NCBI GenBank assembly: GCA_021783685.1
Contig: JAJXTQ010000130.1
Coordinates: forward strand, 1-6,161
Direction: 5' to 3'
DNA length: 6,161 nucleotides
DNA from: Pseudomonadota bacterium
Lineage (GTDB): Bacteria; Pseudomonadota; Gammaproteobacteria; UBA5335
Shown: positions 1-6,161 of the stretch, piece by piece
How positions within the stretch are numbered: the stretch's first letter is position 1
Layout: the number at the start of each line of letters is the position of its first letter
Position numbers and translations under genes: made by a program
Notes under the pieces: generated by a model
Told to the model about the DNA's origin: nothing
Database searches by the model: none
What the model saw: only the letters and a program-made list of their open reading frames with translations

Positions 1-267
1 GACGCCGCGGGAGGCAGCAACAAGGCATCGGCGCTGCGCTTCTACGGCGATCGGTTTGTGTTCGACACGGAATCCGGGCGGTTCTACCGGGTCACCCCGA
101 CCGCGAGTTTCATGTTGCGGGCGCTCGAGCGCGGCGTTGGTCCGGACAGGCTCGCGGACCTTCTTGAATCCGAATACCACATCGACCGGGCCACCGCGGC
201 GCGGGATGCAAGCAGGTTCGTAAAAGATATGCAACGGATCGAGCCGTTCAACGAGCTGGCAGCCTAG
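1..267 (+). CDS. PqqD-like small protein (peptide/carrier chaperone), 5' end outside window
   Basis: The frame is open from base 1 to a TAG at 265-267, giving at least 88 residues. The only good in-window start, GTG at 58, would cut through the first beta-strand pair (LRFYGDRFVFDTESGRFYRV), so the real start is probably upstream and the gene is partial. The pattern fits the PqqD fold: a strand pair around 'RFVFDTESGRFYRVTP', a hydrophobic helix 'ASFMLRALERG', a winged-helix-like stretch 'DRLADLLESEYHID', and a last helix 'ARDASRFVKDMQRI'. In characterised RiPP systems PqqD-type domains bind a precursor leader peptide and deliver it to a modifying enzyme. Here the likely partner is the ATP-grasp ligase starting 19 bases downstream. 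This is probably not the PqqD of PQQ synthesis, since no PqqA/B/C/E is seen. Its client is unknown; a precursor or carrier could lie upstream. Confidence 0.72.
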   Translation, partial: DAAGGSNKASALRFYGDRFVFDTESGRFYRVTPTASFMLRALERGVGPDRLADLLESEYHIDRATAARDASRFVKDMQRIEPFNELAA

Positions 268-286
268 AGAGCCCCGGGTATTTCCC

Positions 287-1372
287 ATGACGACGGTCGC
301 GCTCACCGGCATGCACCGAGGCGAGAACCCCCAGCCGGGCGCCGCGGTCGGCGTGAGCCTGCGTCGCCAGCACCCTGATCTGCGCATCGTCGGACTCTGC
401 TACGACCCGCTGGAGAGCGCACTGTTCAGCCGCGACGCCAGCCGGCCCGATGCGGCCTTTCTCCTTCCCTATCCGGGTGCCGGTCCCGATGCGTTGCTTG
501 AACGCCTGGACGAGATCCTGAAATACGAGCGGATCGACTGCCTGATCCCCTGCCTCGACTCCGAGTTGGACAACCTGATCGTCCTCGCGCCGGAACTCGC
601 CAAACGATCGATCGCCTGCCTTCTGCCGAGCAAGGAATCGCTTGACGCGCGCAACAAGGTGAACCTGCCGGAATTCTGCCGTGGGCTCGGCATCCAGACG
701 CCGCGCACGTTTTGCGCCAGCGACGCGGAGACACTCGCGGTACAGGCCGAGGCGCTGGGTTATCCGGTGTATGTGAAGGGACGCCTTTACGCGGCGCACC
801 GGGCGCGTTCACGGCCGGAGCTCGTGGAAGCCTACACCCATATCGCGGCGGATTGGGGCGGCCCGGTCCTGGTTCAGGAGCCGCTCTATGGCGAGGAATA
901 CGACGTCGTCGGGCTTGGCGATGGGCAGGGTCGGATCGTTGGGTACTGCAGCATTCGCAAGCTGCTGCGGACGTCCGCCGGGAAGGGCTTCGCTGGGGTC
1001 GTGGTCGCCGACCCGAAGCTCGACGCGCTGGCGCAGCGCGTCATCGCCCGCCTGCGCTGGAACGGGCCGTTCGAACTGGAGTTCGTCAAATCTCCGGGCC
1101 ACCCGCATGCCCTGTTCGAAATGAACCCGCGCTTTCCCGCGTGGGTCGATTTTCCCTCGCAGATCTCGTGCAACCTGCCCGCCCGGCTTTTGCGCAGCCT
1201 GCTCGGCGCGGGGCCCGTGCCGCTCGCGGTCTGCGCGCCGGGCCGGATGTTCATTCGTCACAGCACCGACCTGGTCGCCGATATCGCGGAGGTGGCGGAA
1301 CTCGTCACCACCGGCGCGCGCGGCGTCAAGACGGCCCCCGCAGCGACCAGCGTCGCGCGGACCGGGGACTGA
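287..1372 (+). CDS. ATP-grasp domain ligase (carboxylate-amine ligase type)
   Basis: This 361-residue protein has ATP-grasp architecture. Residues 1-115 look like a pre-ATP-grasp Rossmann-like domain: strand 'TTVALTG', then 'LRIVGLCYD' and 'IDCLIPCLDSELDN'. The central part carries the nucleotide-binding elements: K124 in 'DARNKV', K164 in 'YPVYVKGR', 'VLVQEPLYGEEYDVVG' (196-209) and the flexible loop 'AGKGFAG' (231-237). The metal-binding end is 'FELEFVK' (262-268) and 'LFEMNPRFPAW' (277-287, with E278, N280, R282). It resembles CarB/PylC-like ATP-grasp proteins, which activate a carboxylate as acyl phosphate and couple it to an amine. All key residues seem present, so it is probably active; the substrate is unknown. 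ATG 287 is preferred because it preserves the first strand, although its ribosome site is weak, which suggests coupling to the gene before it. The decarboxylase next door could supply an amine substrate or act on a shared intermediate. Confidence 0.87.
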   Translation: MTTVALTGMHRGENPQPGAAVGVSLRRQHPDLRIVGLCYDPLESALFSRDASRPDAAFLLPYPGAGPDALLERLDEILKYERIDCLIPCLDSELDNLIVLAPELAKRSIACLLPSKESLDARNKVNLPEFCRGLGIQTPRTFCASDAETLAVQAEALGYPVYVKGRLYAAHRARSRPELVEAYTHIAADWGGPVLVQEPLYGEEYDVVGLGDGQGRIVGYCSIRKLLRTSAGKGFAGVVVADPKLDALAQRVIARLRWNGPFELEFVKSPGHPHALFEMNPRFPAWVDFPSQISCNLPARLLRSLLGAGPVPLAVCAPGRMFIRHSTDLVADIAEVAELVTTGARGVKTAPAATSVARTGD

Positions 1373-1384
1373 CAGGCGGGGAAT

Positions 1385-1390
1385 GAGGGG
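1385..1390 (+). promoter_or_regulatory. Ribosome binding site of the decarboxylase gene
   Basis: GAGGGG lies 8 bases before ATG 1399 and supports that start. The ATP-grasp stop codon ends only 26 bases before the ATG, leaving little room for a separate promoter. Confidence 0.6.
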
Positions 1391-1398
1391 ATCGAGCG

Positions 1399-2829
1399 AT
1401 GAACTTCGGATACACGCAACCGGCGATCAGCGAGGAACTCGGCAGCTCGGGCTCGCGGGCGGCGGCGGAGCGCAATGTCTATGCGTTTGGCTCACGCGGG
1501 CGCTCCCTCGGCGAGATCGACGGGGTCTCCGTCCCGGCGCTGCTGGCGGAGTTCGGTTCGCCCCTCTTCGTTTTTTCCGAACGAACCCTGCGCGGCCACG
1601 CGCGCCGGGCCCATGAGGCGTTCGAGAGCCGCTACCCGCGCACCAGCTTTGCCTGGTCCTTCAAGACCAATTACCTGGACGCGATCTGCCAGGCGTTCCG
1701 GCAGGAGGGTTGGATCGCCGAGGTCGTTTCGGATTTCGAATACGAGAAGGCGCGCCGGCTCGGCTTTGCCGGCGACGAGATCGTCTTCAACGGCCCCTAC
1801 AAGCCTCGCCCGATCCTGGAACGCGCGGTTGCCGAGGGGGCGCTGGTCCAGATCGACAACTGGGATGAGCTGGCGCTGGTCGAGGAACTCGTTTCGGGTT
1901 CGGAGAAGCCCGTGTCGGTCGGGCTGCGCGTCTGGCTCGATGCGGGCGTGCAGCCGATATGGTCCAAGTTCGGCTTCGCGCTAGCGAACCAGGACGCGGG
2001 GCGCGCGGCCGCACGGGTGGTCGCCAACCCGAGGCTTCGGCTGCACACGCTGCACACGCATATCGGCACATACATCCTGGCACCCCAGGCTTATGGTACC
2101 GCGGCGCGCAAGCTGCTGGGGCTGCGCCAGGACATCAGCGACACGCTTGGTCACGTGGTGCCCTGTCTCAACCTCGGTGGCGGCTTTCCGTCCAACAGCC
2201 TGCTGCACGGGATGGCGGGGCCGGCGGAGGCGCAGGTTCCGCCGATCGAGGCCTACGCCGCGGCGATCGCGGATGTGCTGGCCGGCCTGCCTGCCGCGCA
2301 GCAGCCGCTGCTGCGGCTCGAGACCGGCCGCCACCTGATCGACGAGGCAGGCTACCTCCTCACCAGGGTCGTGGCTGTGAAGGGCCCGCTGGCCCACGCC
2401 GGTGCGACCGCTGATCTGGTCGCGCGCGCAAACAAGGAGCGCGCGATCCTGGGCGACGAGCCGGAGGCAAGCTACATCCTGGATGCCGGGATCAACCTTC
2501 TCTACACCGCGGCCTGGTACCGGTATTCGGTCATGCCGGCCCGCGCGTCGGCGGCGCCGGCGGTACCGTCGCGGCTTTACGGGTCGTTGTGCATGGCGAT
2601 CGATGTCATCCGCGACCGCGTGGCGCTGCCGCCGATGGAAGTGGGCGACGCCCTGAGCCTCCATCCGGTGGGGGCCTATAACGTCGTTCAGTCCATGCAG
2701 TTCATCCAGTATCGCCCGGCCGTGGTGCTGATCGATCCGGACGGGACGCCGCGGCTGATCCGCGCTCGCGAGCAACTCGAGGACATCGAGCGTGCCGAGC
2801 ATCTGCCCGCCCATCTTTCCCCCGCCTAA
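1399..2829 (+). CDS. Fold-III PLP-dependent amino acid decarboxylase (LysA/Orn/DAP/Arg decarboxylase-2 family)
   Basis: This 476-residue cytoplasmic enzyme has the full layout of group IV (alanine-racemase-fold) decarboxylases. The PLP lysine is K89 in 'FAWSFKTNYLDAIC'. Next come 'VVSDFEYEKARRLGF' (S-x-x-E pattern), 'IVFNGPYK' (128-135), 'SKFGF' (189-193) and 'LHTLHTHIGT' (215-224, with H221 expected to stack on PLP). Phosphate binding is shown by 'LNLGGGFP' (257-264) and 'LETGR' (307-311). The second-subunit active-site pieces are C398 and D402 in 'SLCMAIDVI' and Y427 in 'GAYNVVQSMQF'. The family converts L- or D-amino acids to amines and normally forms dimers. 'ETGR' replaces the more usual 'EPGR', and the stretch after GGGFP is unlike standard DapDC, so this is probably not the housekeeping lysine enzyme. 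The substrate could be diaminopimelate, ornithine, arginine or a carrier-bound amino acid; sequence alone cannot decide. The first 45 or so residues are an extra, low-similarity N-terminus. It lies in the middle of the operon. Confidence 0.9.
   Translation: MNFGYTQPAISEELGSSGSRAAAERNVYAFGSRGRSLGEIDGVSVPALLAEFGSPLFVFSERTLRGHARRAHEAFESRYPRTSFAWSFKTNYLDAICQAFRQEGWIAEVVSDFEYEKARRLGFAGDEIVFNGPYKPRPILERAVAEGALVQIDNWDELALVEELVSGSEKPVSVGLRVWLDAGVQPIWSKFGFALANQDAGRAAARVVANPRLRLHTLHTHIGTYILAPQAYGTAARKLLGLRQDISDTLGHVVPCLNLGGGFPSNSLLHGMAGPAEAQVPPIEAYAAAIADVLAGLPAAQQPLLRLETGRHLIDEAGYLLTRVVAVKGPLAHAGATADLVARANKERAILGDEPEASYILDAGINLLYTAAWYRYSVMPARASAAPAVPSRLYGSLCMAIDVIRDRVALPPMEVGDALSLHPVGAYNVVQSMQFIQYRPAVVLIDPDGTPRLIRAREQLEDIERAEHLPAHLSPA
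2779..2783 (+). promoter_or_regulatory. Ribosome binding site supporting the GTG 2792 start
   Basis: GAGGA sits 8 bases before GTG 2792, inside the end of the decarboxylase gene. It supports a start that overlaps the upstream gene by 38 bases. A rival GTG at 2870 has GGGGA at 2858-2862, 7 bases upstream, so the start is not settled. Confidence 0.45.
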
Positions 2830-5083
2830 GCCAGCCAGGCCGGCGAGCCCGCGCCGCGGGGACCCGCCCGTGGGCGGGCTCGCGCGCGCAACCGCGGCTT
2901 CCATCGGGGATCGGTTTCCGACCCCGCTGATCATGATCCTGGGGCCGGCGCTCGGCGGCGCGTTCCTGATCTCCAACCCCTGGATCGGCGCGCTGCTCTG
3001 GCTGGCGATCTTCCAGGATCTGCCGCACGCCGCCTTCGCGCTCCTGGGTATCGGCATCGCCGAGGCGATCGTGCGCGCGGCGCGCGTCAGCGATGGTTCG
3101 CCGGTGGACGGCAGCCTGAAGGCGAACGCGGTGCTGGCGGCGCTCGCGGCGTCCTGGCTTACCGAGTCCGTCGACATGCCGGTGGAAATCGGGATCGTGA
3201 TTGCCGCCATCTCCGCCGCGACGGCGGCGGTGCTCACGGCGGCCATCACGCGGGCGCTGGCGACGACGGGGCTGCCGACGCTCGTGCTGGGCTACTGCGT
3301 GACGGCGATGATGCTGTTCGCGACGTTTCATCACTGGACCGAGACCGCAGTGCTGGCCATCCACTGGCCGCTGGTGCCGGACACGCTTTCCGGCTGGATC
3401 ATGACCTTCTTCGAAACCCTCGGCGCGCTGGTGTTCCTGCCCACCGCGCGCGTCGGCATCGTGGTGGCACTCGCCATCCTGCTGTGGTCGCGTGCCGCGT
3501 TCGTCGCCGGCGTCGCCGGTTGGATCGCCGGCGTGCTGGTCTCCCTCGCGCTGGCGCAAATTGGCGTCGTCTACTACTGGATGCCGGCCGCCTATAACTT
3601 CTTTCTCGCCGGCATGGGGCTCGGCGCGATCTTTTTCCTGCCCGGTCCGGCAAGTTTGCTGATCGCGACGCTTGGCGGCGCGAGTGCGGCGATCATCGCA
3701 GTCGCACTGCAGCACCTGTTCCCCGACAGCTCGTTCGGCTACCTGCCGATCGCGTCGCTGCTCACCATCTGGGTCGGCATCTACGCACTCGCGCAGGCGA
3801 GCGAGCAGACCCTGTTCCAGCGTAACCATGCAATCGAAATGCCGCCCGAGGAGGCATGGTGGCGCGCGGCCTACTGGTTGCAGCGGCTGGGGCCACCCGG
3901 ACCCTTCCTGGTCGTGCCGCTCGACGGCCGCGCGCAGGTCTCGCAAGGCTGGGACGGCGAGTTCAGCCATGTCGGACCGTGGCGAAACGCGCTCGATTTC
4001 CAGCGTCCGGCGCCGACAGCCCACACCACGTCCGAGGAACCCACCACCATCTGGAACGCCGACGTCAGCGCGCCGGCAGCCGGCTTCGTCGAGCGGATCG
4101 AAAGCCGCGTCCCGGACAATCCGCTTGGTGTCGCCAATTACGCCGACAACTGGGGCAACTACGTGATCATCCGCCTCGACCAGGGCGGCTGGGCGACGCT
4201 CGCGCATCTGCGGCAGGGAAGCGTTGCGGTCTCGCTCGGCATGCGCGTGGAGATCGGCACCCGCATCGGTGCCGTCGGCAACTCCGGCCGTTCGCCGATG
4301 CCGCACCTGCACATGCAGGTCCAGGGCGCTCCCTACCTCGGCGCGCCCACCGTGCCGTTCCGGCTGGCCAACTACCTCTCGGCGACCGATCCCGGAGAAG
4401 CGCCGCGACACTGGAACGCGGCGGGTATCCCGAGCCACGGGGCGATCGTGTCGCATGCCGTCCCGGAGCCTGGCGTCCAGGCGCTGCTGGCGAGCTTCAC
4501 GCCGGGTTGCGCCGTCTGGGCGATCGAGAGCAAGGGGCGCCTGCCATCCGTGTTCAGCCGGGCGCGTTTCGCATCCACCGTGCGCGCCGGTATCTTCCTG
4601 ACCGAAGCCGGCCGGCACGTGCTCAGGGTGGGCCGCGGCGGCGCGCTGATCGCGGGGCTCGATCCGGACGCCTGGCGCGTGCTCGACCTGCAGGTCGGCG
4701 CCTCGCCGCTCCAGCAGATGCTGGCGCTGGCGGTACCCTCGATCCCTTATGCCGCCAGGCCCGGGCTCACCTGGGCGGAACCGGCTCCGATCGTGCCGTT
4801 CAGGGCGGCGCGCTGGCTCGGGCTCTCGTTCGCGCCCTACCTGCGCGAGCCGTTCGCGCATGTCCGTTGCCAATGCGTCACGGCGCCGGGAGCGCAAAGC
4901 GAGGCCCTCGTCGTCGAGACCCTGCTGGAAACGCCCTGCACCTGGCTGCCCTCCAAGCTCGTCTGTGAGTTCGAGCGCCTGCGCGGTCCGGTGCGGCTGG
5001 AAGCGATCTTCGACAACGGGAGCCTGGTCTATTCGCTGCTGTCCTTCGAACCCGGGCTTCCCTTCGAGCCGGCTGACCGGTGA
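2792..5083 (+). CDS. Urea-transporter-like membrane domain fused to M23 (LytM-type) zinc peptidase
   Basis: This 763-residue protein has three parts. Residues about 44-336 are very hydrophobic and match the two-repeat urea transporter (UT) fold. Repeat one has 'NPWIGALLWLAIF' (62-74), the N112 region 'GSLKANAVLAALAASW', and 'GLPTLVLGY'. Repeat two has 'FFETLGALVF' (206-215), the N269 region 'AYNFFLAGMGLGAIFF', and 'GYLPIASLLTIW'. Residues about 375-525 are an M23 peptidase: H393 and D402 ('SHVGPWRNALDF') with H507 as zinc ligands, and H472 ('LAHL') and H505 ('PHLHMQV') as catalytic histidines, so hydrolysis of peptide crosslinks is likely. Residues 530-763 form an unrecognised, probably beta-rich domain with cysteines at 573, 693, 695, 716 and 725. 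The UT pore motifs are altered, so urea may not be the substrate. The proline-rich first 26 residues would vanish if GTG 2870 is the start. The protein ends the operon and could export or import a product and trim it, or act on peptidoglycan. Confidence 0.85.
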   Translation: MPSICPPIFPPPKPARPASPRRGDPPVGGLARATAASIGDRFPTPLIMILGPALGGAFLISNPWIGALLWLAIFQDLPHAAFALLGIGIAEAIVRAARVSDGSPVDGSLKANAVLAALAASWLTESVDMPVEIGIVIAAISAATAAVLTAAITRALATTGLPTLVLGYCVTAMMLFATFHHWTETAVLAIHWPLVPDTLSGWIMTFFETLGALVFLPTARVGIVVALAILLWSRAAFVAGVAGWIAGVLVSLALAQIGVVYYWMPAAYNFFLAGMGLGAIFFLPGPASLLIATLGGASAAIIAVALQHLFPDSSFGYLPIASLLTIWVGIYALAQASEQTLFQRNHAIEMPPEEAWWRAAYWLQRLGPPGPFLVVPLDGRAQVSQGWDGEFSHVGPWRNALDFQRPAPTAHTTSEEPTTIWNADVSAPAAGFVERIESRVPDNPLGVANYADNWGNYVIIRLDQGGWATLAHLRQGSVAVSLGMRVEIGTRIGAVGNSGRSPMPHLHMQVQGAPYLGAPTVPFRLANYLSATDPGEAPRHWNAAGIPSHGAIVSHAVPEPGVQALLASFTPGCAVWAIESKGRLPSVFSRARFASTVRAGIFLTEAGRHVLRVGRGGALIAGLDPDAWRVLDLQVGASPLQQMLALAVPSIPYAARPGLTWAEPAPIVPFRAARWLGLSFAPYLREPFAHVRCQCVTAPGAQSEALVVETLLETPCTWLPSKLVCEFERLRGPVRLEAIFDNGSLVYSLLSFEPGLPFEPADR

Positions 5084-5194
5084 CGCACGGGCCGCGGGCC
5101 GCAGGGCTATCACGGTCTCCCGCTGTCGGGCATGCTGACCGGCGTTTCCGGGTTCCCGGTTTCATCGTGCTCGGGACGCCAGGCTCGGATCATC

Positions 5195-5200
5195 GGAGAG
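5195..5200 (+). promoter_or_regulatory. Ribosome binding site deciding the TTG 5206 start
   Basis: GGAGAG lies 5 bases before TTG 5206. No comparable site precedes GTG 5080, and GTG 5215 would be 14 bases away. TTG 5206 also gives a normal-length lipoprotein signal peptide. Confidence 0.5.
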
Positions 5201-5205
5201 CGACG

Positions 5206-5916
5206 TTGCGGACAGTGCCGGAAGCAGGGGTATCGAGGCGGCGGGTCCATTCCCTGCGCCGCGTGCTGTTCCTCGCGATGCTGACGGTGCTGGCCGGCTG
5301 CGCGGGCGATCCTCCGCCGCCGGGCATGCCCACGGTGGCCCTGGCCCCGGCGCCGCATGGCGAGGCGGGGACGGTGGCGCTGCTCACCCATGGCTGGCAC
5401 ACGGATATCGCGGTGCCGGTGGGCGAGATATCCGGCCCGCTGACGATGTTCGTGCGCCGCTTTCCGGGCGCGAAGAACATCGTGTTCGGCTATGGCAAGC
5501 GCAGCTTCATGGTTTCGCGCGAGCATACCGCGGGGGACTGGCTGGACGGGCCGTTTCCCGGCCGCGGCGCGGTGGAGGTGAGTGCACTCGCAGCCGACCC
5601 CGCCGCCGCCTATGGCGCGCGGCATACCATGACGATCGACCTGCCGCCCGGTGGCGCGGCGCGGCTTTCCGCCTTCATCTGGCAGAGCCTCGCCAAGGAT
5701 GCGGCGGGCCGGCCGGTCGAGGTCGCGCCGGGCGGCTTCAAGGGCAGCCACGTCTTCGCGGCGACGAGCGGCTACGACCTGTCCCATACCTGCAACACGT
5801 GGAGCGCGCAGGCGCTCGCGTTCACCGGCCTCGGCATTCGCTGGACGGGCATCACTTTTTCGAGCCAGATCGACGCCGAGGCGCGGCGGTTCGCGGTGCC
5901 GCCGTCCGGGTCCTGA
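5206..5916 (+). CDS. DUF2459 (TIGR02117-type) lipoprotein
   Basis: From TTG 5206 the product is 236 residues. It begins with a positively charged region ('SRRRVHSLRR'), a hydrophobic stretch 'VLFLAMLTV' and the lipobox 'LAGC' with Cys32. It is therefore a predicted lipoprotein; Ala at +2 suggests the outer membrane under the E. coli rule. Conserved-looking blocks are 'LLTHGWHTDIAVPVG' (H62, H65, D67), 'VFGYGKRSFM' and 'SHTCNTWSAQALAFTGLGI' (C196, N197). These match my recollection of the DUF2459/TIGR02117 family, whose function is unknown and whose name refers to urease regions. A histidine motif early and a cysteine motif late is the order seen in circularly permuted papain/NlpC-P60-like enzymes, so a thiol hydrolase or acyltransferase role is possible but unproven. 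The frame stays open back to GTG 5080, overlapping the previous stop, but that start would bury the signal peptide behind 42 extra residues. A 122-base gap separates it from the UT-M23 gene, so co-transcription is possible rather than certain. Confidence 0.85.
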   Translation: MRTVPEAGVSRRRVHSLRRVLFLAMLTVLAGCAGDPPPPGMPTVALAPAPHGEAGTVALLTHGWHTDIAVPVGEISGPLTMFVRRFPGAKNIVFGYGKRSFMVSREHTAGDWLDGPFPGRGAVEVSALAADPAAAYGARHTMTIDLPPGGAARLSAFIWQSLAKDAAGRPVEVAPGGFKGSHVFAATSGYDLSHTCNTWSAQALAFTGLGIRWTGITFSSQIDAEARRFAVPPSGS

Positions 5917-6008: not shown

Positions 6009-6161
6009 ATGCGCTCCGGTGAGGCGCAAGCGGAGCCCGGGGAAGCTGCCGCGGGCGCGGGGCAACGCGCGCCGCGCCGGCTGATCGCGCCTGATCAGCT
6101 CGGCGCGCTGATCCAGGCGCTGGCAGGGCGTGGCTACGCGGTGATCGGCCCGACGGTGCGG
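6009..6161 (+). CDS. Sulfhydrogenase/hydrogenase beta-like 4Fe-4S protein, N-terminal part only
   Basis: The frame from ATG 6009 is open to the window end, giving 51 residues. After a low-complexity Ala/Gly/Glu-rich lead of about 20 residues comes 'RRLIAPDQLGALIQALAGRG' followed by 'YAVIGPTVR'. This is the N-terminal pattern I associate with 4Fe-4S dicluster proteins annotated as sulfhydrogenase beta subunits (HydB/HyhB-like) and anaerobic sulfite reductase A-like proteins: a short strand, a helix, then 'G-Y-x-V-x-G-P-T-V-R'. Such proteins pass electrons between an NAD(P)-binding flavoprotein and a [NiFe] hydrogenase in the cytoplasm. The iron-sulfur cysteine motifs would lie beyond the window, so the assignment rests on the N-terminus, the strong ribosome site and the FNR-like box upstream. 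It most likely opens a new operon unrelated to the genes before it. Confidence 0.6.
   Translation, partial: MRSGEAQAEPGEAAAGAGQRAPRRLIAPDQLGALIQALAGRGYAVIGPTVR

Follow-up and report, generated by a model that had tools for sequence, protein, structure and literature searches.

A conserved operon encoding a PqqD-like protein, an ATP-grasp ligase, a decarboxylase and a urea transporter–peptidase fusion: a possible biosynthesis-and-handling system

INTRODUCTION

In the putrescine-free rhizoferrin pathway (FslA/FigA and FslC/FigC), an amino acid is coupled first and decarboxylated afterwards; the ligase is an NIS synthetase and the decarboxylase acts on N-citrylornithine (PMC7857480). Here we describe a four-gene operon whose decarboxylase has N-citrylornithine decarboxylase as its best solved relative and whose ligase is, instead, of the ATP-grasp type. 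The operon occupies positions 1–5083 of a 6,161-nucleotide stretch of DNA (the whole of which is hereafter called the window) from a gammaproteobacterium of the UBA5335 lineage (assembly GCA_021783685.1, contig JAJXTQ010000130.1). It also encodes a PqqD-like small protein and a protein in which a urea transporter (UT) domain is fused to an M23 peptidase (UT-M23). It is a widespread, co-inherited system, and we propose, with a probability of roughly 0.42, that it is a conserved biosynthesis-and-handling operon, the products of which would couple an amino acid, decarboxylate it, and release or pass on the product at UT-M23.

According to the same source, N-citrylornithine decarboxylase carries a Met in place of the acidic residue beside the catalytic Cys that elsewhere binds the side-chain amine; in its specificity helix, T327 and other residues stand in for the Arg that binds diaminopimelate; and docking indicates that H357, R387 and N389 may contact citrate (PMC7857480). 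Its clade contains other enzymes that use conjugated or carrier-bound amino acids, as well as diaminopimelate and D-ornithine decarboxylases, and the enzymes grouped with FigC include butirosin BtrK/BtrI and microcin C MccE, whose substrates are carrier-bound or peptide-linked (PMC7857480). The remaining products of the operon call to mind the lasso-peptide PqqD chaperones, the ATP-grasp enzymes of Ter operons (PF15632) and bacterial urea transporters such as dvUT.

RESULTS

Four genes lie head to tail on the + strand of the window (residues of UT-M23 are numbered from position 2870):

1..267, + strand, PqqD-like small protein (RiPP-recognition-element family, RiPP standing for ribosomally synthesized and post-translationally modified peptide); 5' end cut, the frame entering from base 1; 88 amino acids visible
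287..1372, + strand, ATP-grasp ligase, 361 amino acids
1399..2829, + strand, alanine-racemase-fold, pyridoxal 5'-phosphate (PLP)-dependent (fold-III) decarboxylase, 476 amino acids, with an N-citrylornithine-decarboxylase-like pocket
2590..2595, + strand, codons of Cys398 (catalytic-type) and Met399 of the decarboxylase, located by alignments to 7kh2, 1twi and 8d2y
2792..5083 (alternative start 2870), + strand, UT-M23 fusion protein, from Pfam and an AlphaFold2 model of 2870–5083
2903..3883, + strand, urea-transporter fold domain of UT-M23, residues 12–338
3902..4372, + strand, M23 (LytM) peptidase domain of UT-M23, with H367, D376, H446, H479 and H481
4427..5053, + strand, C-terminal beta-rich domain of UT-M23, poorly conserved

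An earlier note on this DNA, made from the letters alone, had described gaps of 19 and 26 bases and one 38-base overlap between four genes with intact-looking key motifs. The key residues are intact and the gaps are correct, as is the overlap provided that UT-M23 starts at the GTG at 2792. On our reading, a GAGGA motif lies 8 bases 5' of 2792; an in-frame GTG at 2870 gives a UT-M23 of 737 amino acids and no overlap, and fits the frames of relatives (median 728).

Conservation of the neighbourhood was assessed by scanning a species-genome collection with 25 aligned ATP-grasp relatives, which returned at least 591 stretches. A relative is encoded in 393 of these; the 80 best were retained as loci, and presence was counted only in loci with enough sequence on the side concerned. 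A decarboxylase was found in 73 of 73 loci and UT-M23 in 67 of 67; PqqD was found in 73 of 74, clustering having recovered 71 and inspection by eye the other two, L044 and L058. The genes are collinear, with median gaps (frames counted from the first start codon) of −4 (67 loci), 0 (70 loci) and 6 bases (66 loci). According to the record titles, the 80 loci carry about ten phylum-level labels, which include Pseudomonadota, Verrucomicrobiota, Planctomycetota, Armatimonadota, Cloacimonadota, Bacteroidota and Ignavibacteria/Chlorobiota, and further Myxococcota, another deltaproteobacterium, Riflebacteria, an Obscuribacterales genome and one genome labelled Aquifex; most are metagenome bins, for which mislabelling is possible, and three read only 'bacterium'. 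We take all the phyla named to be diderm, Firmicutes and Actinobacteria not having been specifically searched. Named strains with the system are Stutzerimonas sp. S1, Pseudomonas songnenensis NEAU-ST5-5 and Chthoniobacter flavus Ellin428. No ATP-grasp match was obtained at E 1e-40 in 72,556 plasmid records. Given these neighbourhood tests, the four-gene association is not a chance one: the repeated co-occurrence of all four families, which the earlier note had proposed as its own test, came out strongly and reaches beyond the proteobacteria.

Because these loci had been chosen by ATP-grasp, searches were also begun from UT-M23 and from the decarboxylase. At E ≤ 1e-60 (3–7 candidates were scored per genome, so that second copies may be missed), UT-M23 was present in 36 of 299 genomes of the phylum of the Pseudomonas locus, in 20 of 198 of the phylum of an Ignavibacteria bin (the genome of L041) and, within the Chthoniobacter phylum, in 2 of 145; each count includes the centre genome. 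The decarboxylase adjoins UT-M23 in 50 of the 54 UT-M23-selected loci fetched; among the loci that do not show it, L131 is a fragment and L130 overlaps L132, which has the decarboxylase. When the search started from the decarboxylase (E ≤ 1e-90; matches in 28 of 200 genomes), ATP-grasp was directly upstream in 28 of 28 loci, PqqD was present in 26 of 28 (L170 starts at a contig end) and UT-M23 in 24 of 28, weakly in two (L190 and L192), L182 stopping at a contig edge. These counts identify PqqD, ATP-grasp and decarboxylase as the tightest unit and UT-M23 as its near-constant partner. Note that G002 and G012 each contain two full-length UT-M23 matches, that some genes look interrupted in L109, L116 and L130/L132 (a decarboxylase split in two; UT-M23 broken by a stop or likewise split), and that a frame which we read as asparagine-synthetase-like adjoins UT-M23 in L104.

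The proteins are also inherited together. In the 49 loci where all four are long enough, pairwise distances of ATP-grasp, decarboxylase and UT-M23 are correlated with r values of 0.935–0.939, and those of PqqD with the other three at 0.848–0.855; none of 1000 permutations was as high as any of these correlations, to which the shared ancestry of the hosts contributes a part.

The decarboxylase displays the features of alanine-racemase-fold PLP decarboxylases, namely the PLP lysine, the catalytic Cys and both Pfam domains (Orn_Arg_deC_N, 87.1 bits for a cut-off of 23.4; Orn_DAP_Arg_deC, 43.3 bits for a cut-off of 23). Among solved enzymes, N-citrylornithine decarboxylase 7kh2 is its best relative (2.1e-45, the next being at 2.1e-28; 5.7e-71 versus 7.4e-47 in a profile search), and the solved BtrK matches it less well (9.7e-21). 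Residues K89, H221, G260–262, E308, R311, C398, M399, I401, D402, Y427 and Q431 are each found in 74 of 74 sequences. Among the same sequences W373, M399, I401, Q431 and Q434 are invariant, position 370 is Thr in 66 and Ser in 8, and position 433 is Met in 70. The CMxID motif is present in all 73 locus decarboxylases that reach the site (78 in all, 5 being too short), and its Met399 takes the place of the acidic residue of ornithine and diaminopimelate decarboxylases.

Using our own conversion of the published numbering onto the alignment (chain number = paper number + 19), M399 and T370 are as in N-citrylornithine decarboxylase, whereas the suggested citrate contacts H357, R387 and N389 of that enzyme (PMC7857480) correspond in our reading to I401, Q431 and M433. 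Since M399 and T370 are shared and the citrate contacts differ, we infer that the substrate has a distal group already coupled, to a partner other than citrate. Since W373, M399, I401, Q431 and Q434 never vary, the substrate is probably identical across the family, and the near-invariant pocket suggests that a single, fixed product is made and not a tailored peptide that varies. Two more specific identities were rejected: diaminopimelate decarboxylase (TIGR01048, 182.8 of 297.9 bits; Thr/Ser for Arg and Met for the acidic residue) and FslC/FigC of rhizoferrin synthesis (NCBIfam FslC, 167.9 of 500 bits; suggested citrate-contact residues differing).

The AlphaFold2 model of the ATP-grasp protein (predicted local distance difference test (pLDDT) 93.6) shows an ATP-grasp fold, and the catalytic-type residues K164, E263, E265, E278, N280 and R282 are each found in 73 of 73 sequences. 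In the fold search 2pn1 came first and carbamoyl phosphate synthetases followed, the L-amino acid ligase RizA ranking 13th; the carbamoyl-phosphate-synthase-like models of NCBIfam all remained below cut-off (best 75.7 of 316). Neither the fold matches nor the conserved residues allow the substrates to be read. Ter-operon enzymes resemble it through a weak match to ATPgrasp_Ter (PF15632), a label carried by about 36 of about 120 listed relatives; the window protein differs from them in scoring below the Pfam cut-off (21.3 of 29.1 bits) and in its surroundings (see below).

The PqqD-like protein matches PF05402 (43.1 bits for a cut-off of 23.4; 5.4e-11), so that a PqqD/RRE-type protein, as found in RiPP clusters, is encoded here; the PqqD frames of relatives have a median length of 88 amino acids. 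It is akin to the lasso-peptide PqqD chaperones as a small PqqD-family protein encoded beside enzymes, and differs from them in its scores, which fall below cut-off for both the lasso (41 of 70 bits) and the HPr-rel-A (19.7 of 35) models of NCBIfam. Pyrroloquinoline quinone (PQQ) biosynthesis was discarded: no NCBIfam model for PQQ synthesis matched this protein at E ≤ 0.1, and the downstream genes are not pqq genes.

Upstream context was surveyed in 87 same-strand frames lying within 1.5 kb 5' of PqqD in relatives, some of which are certainly spurious; 104 families were matched, and the 25 commonest cover every family with at least two members. Proteins with a type IX sorting tail (12 of 87) and tetratricopeptide repeat (TPR) proteins predominate. 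The radical SAM, HprK-like and carrier genes that the earlier note had thought of upstream did not recur, no such family occurring in two or more of the 87 frames; the lack of a recurrent carrier-protein family sets the locus apart from the butirosin and microcin C systems. Nor does a Ter family or an NIS (IucA/IucC-type) synthetase recur in two or more of these frames, and none of the window proteins is such a synthetase. Among the frames inspected, only L035 has one that we read as radical-SAM-like (1566–2606), 155 bases upstream of PqqD.

A precursor peptide gene, also envisaged in the earlier note, was not recurrent near the operon in relatives; the search was coarse (frames of at least 40 amino acids, clustering match of at least 55 bits), and short peptides could escape it because of the 55-bit requirement. 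Besides PqqD, a single small cluster, C16, occurs in at least four loci within 3 kb. Its members (110–212 amino acids, with a signal-anchor-like start) are encoded just upstream of PqqD in the Verrucomicrobia loci L004, L006, L007, L009, L010 and L011, and the one member scanned had no Pfam match. In 24 of 69 loci, no more than 80 bases separate PqqD from the end of the nearest called frame. In the Ignavibacteria/Chlorobiota loci L038, L039, L051, L054, L063, L067 and L079, a C5 protein ends 3–20 bases before PqqD; a type IX sorting tail was seen in that of L054.

UT-M23 matches both UT (PF03253, 75.2 bits for a cut-off of 25) and Peptidase_M23 (43.4 for 28.7), and the model of 2870–5083 (pLDDT 89.4) gives structure matches that, with Pfam, establish the urea-transporter fold; the score against TIGR03441 is 36.1 of 274.6 bits. 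The fusion to M23 and a third domain distinguishes it from bacterial urea transporters such as dvUT, as does the state of LPxxTxPF, which we take to be the pore signature, expected in both halves: its Thr is often Ser in relatives and is lost in the window protein, which has LPTLVLGY in the first half and no LPxxTxPF in the second. Transport by the window protein is doubtful because of these degraded channel motifs. By contrast, the M23 residues, presumably the zinc ligands and catalytic His, are found in 63 of 63 sequences and identify an M23 peptidase; solved relatives of this domain include peptidoglycan peptidases. Urea transporters usually have both termini inside, and the M23 domain would sit in the cytoplasm if UT-M23 keeps this topology. 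Loop-charge bias, a weak indicator of sidedness, places M23 inside in 42 of 63 UT-M23 proteins and outside in 15, with 6 ties, and gives 7 inside and 2 outside for nine stand-alone transporters, on the inside/outside assignment of UT loops that we presume. As for the C-terminal domain, 8 of 10 fragments had no Pfam match at E ≤ 5 and 2 had chance-level ones (E 0.085 and 0.27). VIA-align rows scarcely cover it, and a single weak Foldseek row (rank 39, 8cgm, E 4.6e-4) may point to a LolA-like fold.

Further genes accompany the four in many relatives, where at least 156 downstream frames were called and domain scans covered ten neighbour proteins from both sides of the operon. UT-M23 is followed by at least 2.5 kb of sequence in 57 loci, of which 45 have a TPR protein of family C4, mostly after UT-M23 and in a few loci before PqqD, and 22 have a C7, C11 or C20 protein; a crude pattern detects a signal-like N-terminus in 52 of 56 C4 frames. 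We read the C7-, C11- and C20-type proteins as putative outer-membrane barrels, their C-terminal residues being mixed. One C7 and one C20 protein gave weak TPR matches below cut-off, one C11 protein gave no Pfam match, and one other downstream protein gave an autotransporter-barrel match (E 0.003), also below cut-off. A TPR or barrel-type gene is likewise present in 43 of the 54 UT-M23-selected loci by our own count of rows (flank of at most 1.5 kb). A second UT-domain protein, split by TPR repeats (C13; domains seen for L006 only), lies near the operon in L004–L009, L011 and L016, which are Verrucomicrobia and one Planctomycetaceae locus.

Downstream of the operon, the window contains a neighbour outside the system:

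5080..5916, + strand, DUF2459 protein (PF09601, TIGR02117)

Its frame overlaps the UT-M23 stop. We considered it as a fifth member and left it out because none of 80 related loci has a tblastn match at E 1e-3. A further + strand frame begins at 6009 and leaves the window at 6161; its final residues resemble what we presume to be an iron-sulfur oxidoreductase subunit. No PADLOC anti-phage defence model matches any of the four window proteins submitted, a set without the PqqD-like protein.

DISCUSSION

Taking the operon, its conservation, the conserved catalytic-type residues and the folds as observed, we propose the following sequence of events. The ATP-grasp enzyme would use ATP to link an ornithine-, lysine- or glutamate-like amino acid, through the end of its side chain, to a second molecule, and the PqqD-like protein would hold this partner, which is most probably a peptide or a protein. 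The decarboxylase would then strip the alpha-carboxylate of the attached amino acid, giving a conjugated amine, and UT-M23, in which a zinc peptidase is tethered to a membrane domain of channel fold, would release and/or pass the product. In many bacteria, TPR and barrel-like proteins would finish an envelope route. We infer that coupling precedes decarboxylation, that the partner is bound by PqqD and that UT-M23 comes last. Coupling before decarboxylation is also the logic of the rhizoferrin pathway, which shares the Met and Thr positions of the decarboxylase and, as described in the available parts of PMC7857480, has no counterpart of PqqD or UT-M23. A fuller version of the proposal, namely an ancient diderm pathway in which a fixed amine-bearing metabolite is built on a peptide or protein scaffold held by PqqD, cut free and carried directly across the inner membrane by the protease-channel, and then routed through dedicated TPR proteins and an outer-membrane barrel, seems to us rather doubtful.

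Several observations weigh against the proposed route. PqqD might bind something else, and no precursor gene recurs near the operon within the reach of our coarse search of relatives' loci. The channel motifs are more degraded in the window protein than in many relatives. The Stutzerimonas loci lack TPR and barrel-like genes: in the Stutzerimonas-type L001 and L002 the four genes stand alone, flanked by other-strand genes of solute-binding-protein and hydrolase clusters (one member of each scanned). The gene set also has its exceptions, since L062, the only one of 74 loci with room, shows no PqqD, L184 has none at the cut-off used, L105 and L106 lack the decarboxylase beside UT-M23, and L166, L167 and L175 lack UT-M23 beside the decarboxylase; moreover, UT-M23 is on the opposite strand in L032 and preceded by an extra gene in L070.

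The alternative that survives best, although we consider it unlikely, is tailoring of a RiPP or a protein: PqqD would present a ribosomal peptide, perhaps encoded elsewhere, ATP-grasp and decarboxylase would modify it, and M23 would cut the leader. The above-cut-off PqqD match and the intact M23 residues agree with this, and the usual UT topology, with which the loop charges weakly concur, would put M23 in the cytoplasm together with the enzymes. Against this stand the lack of a recurrent precursor-like gene, the lineage-specific C16 being the only recurrent small cluster besides PqqD at a clustering threshold that would miss short peptides, and a decarboxylase pocket that is invariant over many phyla, unlike what is seen in diversifying RiPPs. 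The earlier note had leaned towards building or modifying a peptide or amino-acid conjugate. Its four-family co-occurrence holds, and an amide-making ATP-grasp enzyme followed by an amine-making decarboxylase is consistent with the residues seen; the upstream partners it had envisaged do not recur in the relatives surveyed, and peptide tailoring stays one of several readings.

Envelope remodelling, in which a periplasmic M23 domain would cut peptidoglycan and the cytoplasmic enzymes would modify a wall peptide or a small signal, is also improbable and comes next. Peptidoglycan peptidases among the solved M23 relatives, the adjoining TPR and barrel-like genes and the kinship of the decarboxylase with diaminopimelate decarboxylase speak for it; on the other hand, the diaminopimelate-specific residues are replaced, and the usual C-terminus-inside topology, with the weak agreement of the loop charges, would leave M23 on the wrong side of the membrane. 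Finally, the operon could serve to export a polymer or poly-amide, with UT-M23 gating the inner membrane and the TPR and barrel-like proteins providing the way out. The position of the TPR and barrel-like genes directly downstream in many loci suggests this, but we consider it very unlikely, given the absence of these genes from the Stutzerimonas loci, a urea-channel fold that we take to be narrow, and the lack of a glycosyltransferase family in two or more of the 87 upstream frames (downstream genes being only sampled).

We found no description of the combination of UT-M23, PqqD, ATP-grasp and decarboxylase in the open-licence PMC literature, and no known cluster matched the set, which agrees with the earlier failure to recognise a characterised pathway. 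We regard the four-gene system as new as a combination, since it is described in none of the curated families, solved pathways or papers that turned up; every part of it falls in a known superfamily.

If the proposed biosynthesis-and-handling pathway is right, about 1 in 10 of the sampled genomes of two large phyla (not of the third, with 2 of 145) carries an unnamed pathway. The annotation of its membrane component is affected as well: across 200 sampled Pseudomonadota genomes, 30 urea-transporter matches were listed (E ≤ 1e-30), of which 21, by our own count, sit in frames of at least 559 amino acids at UT-M23 sites, so that a bare 'urea transporter' label would often be misleading. UT-M23 would then exemplify a protease joined physically to the fold of a small-molecule channel.

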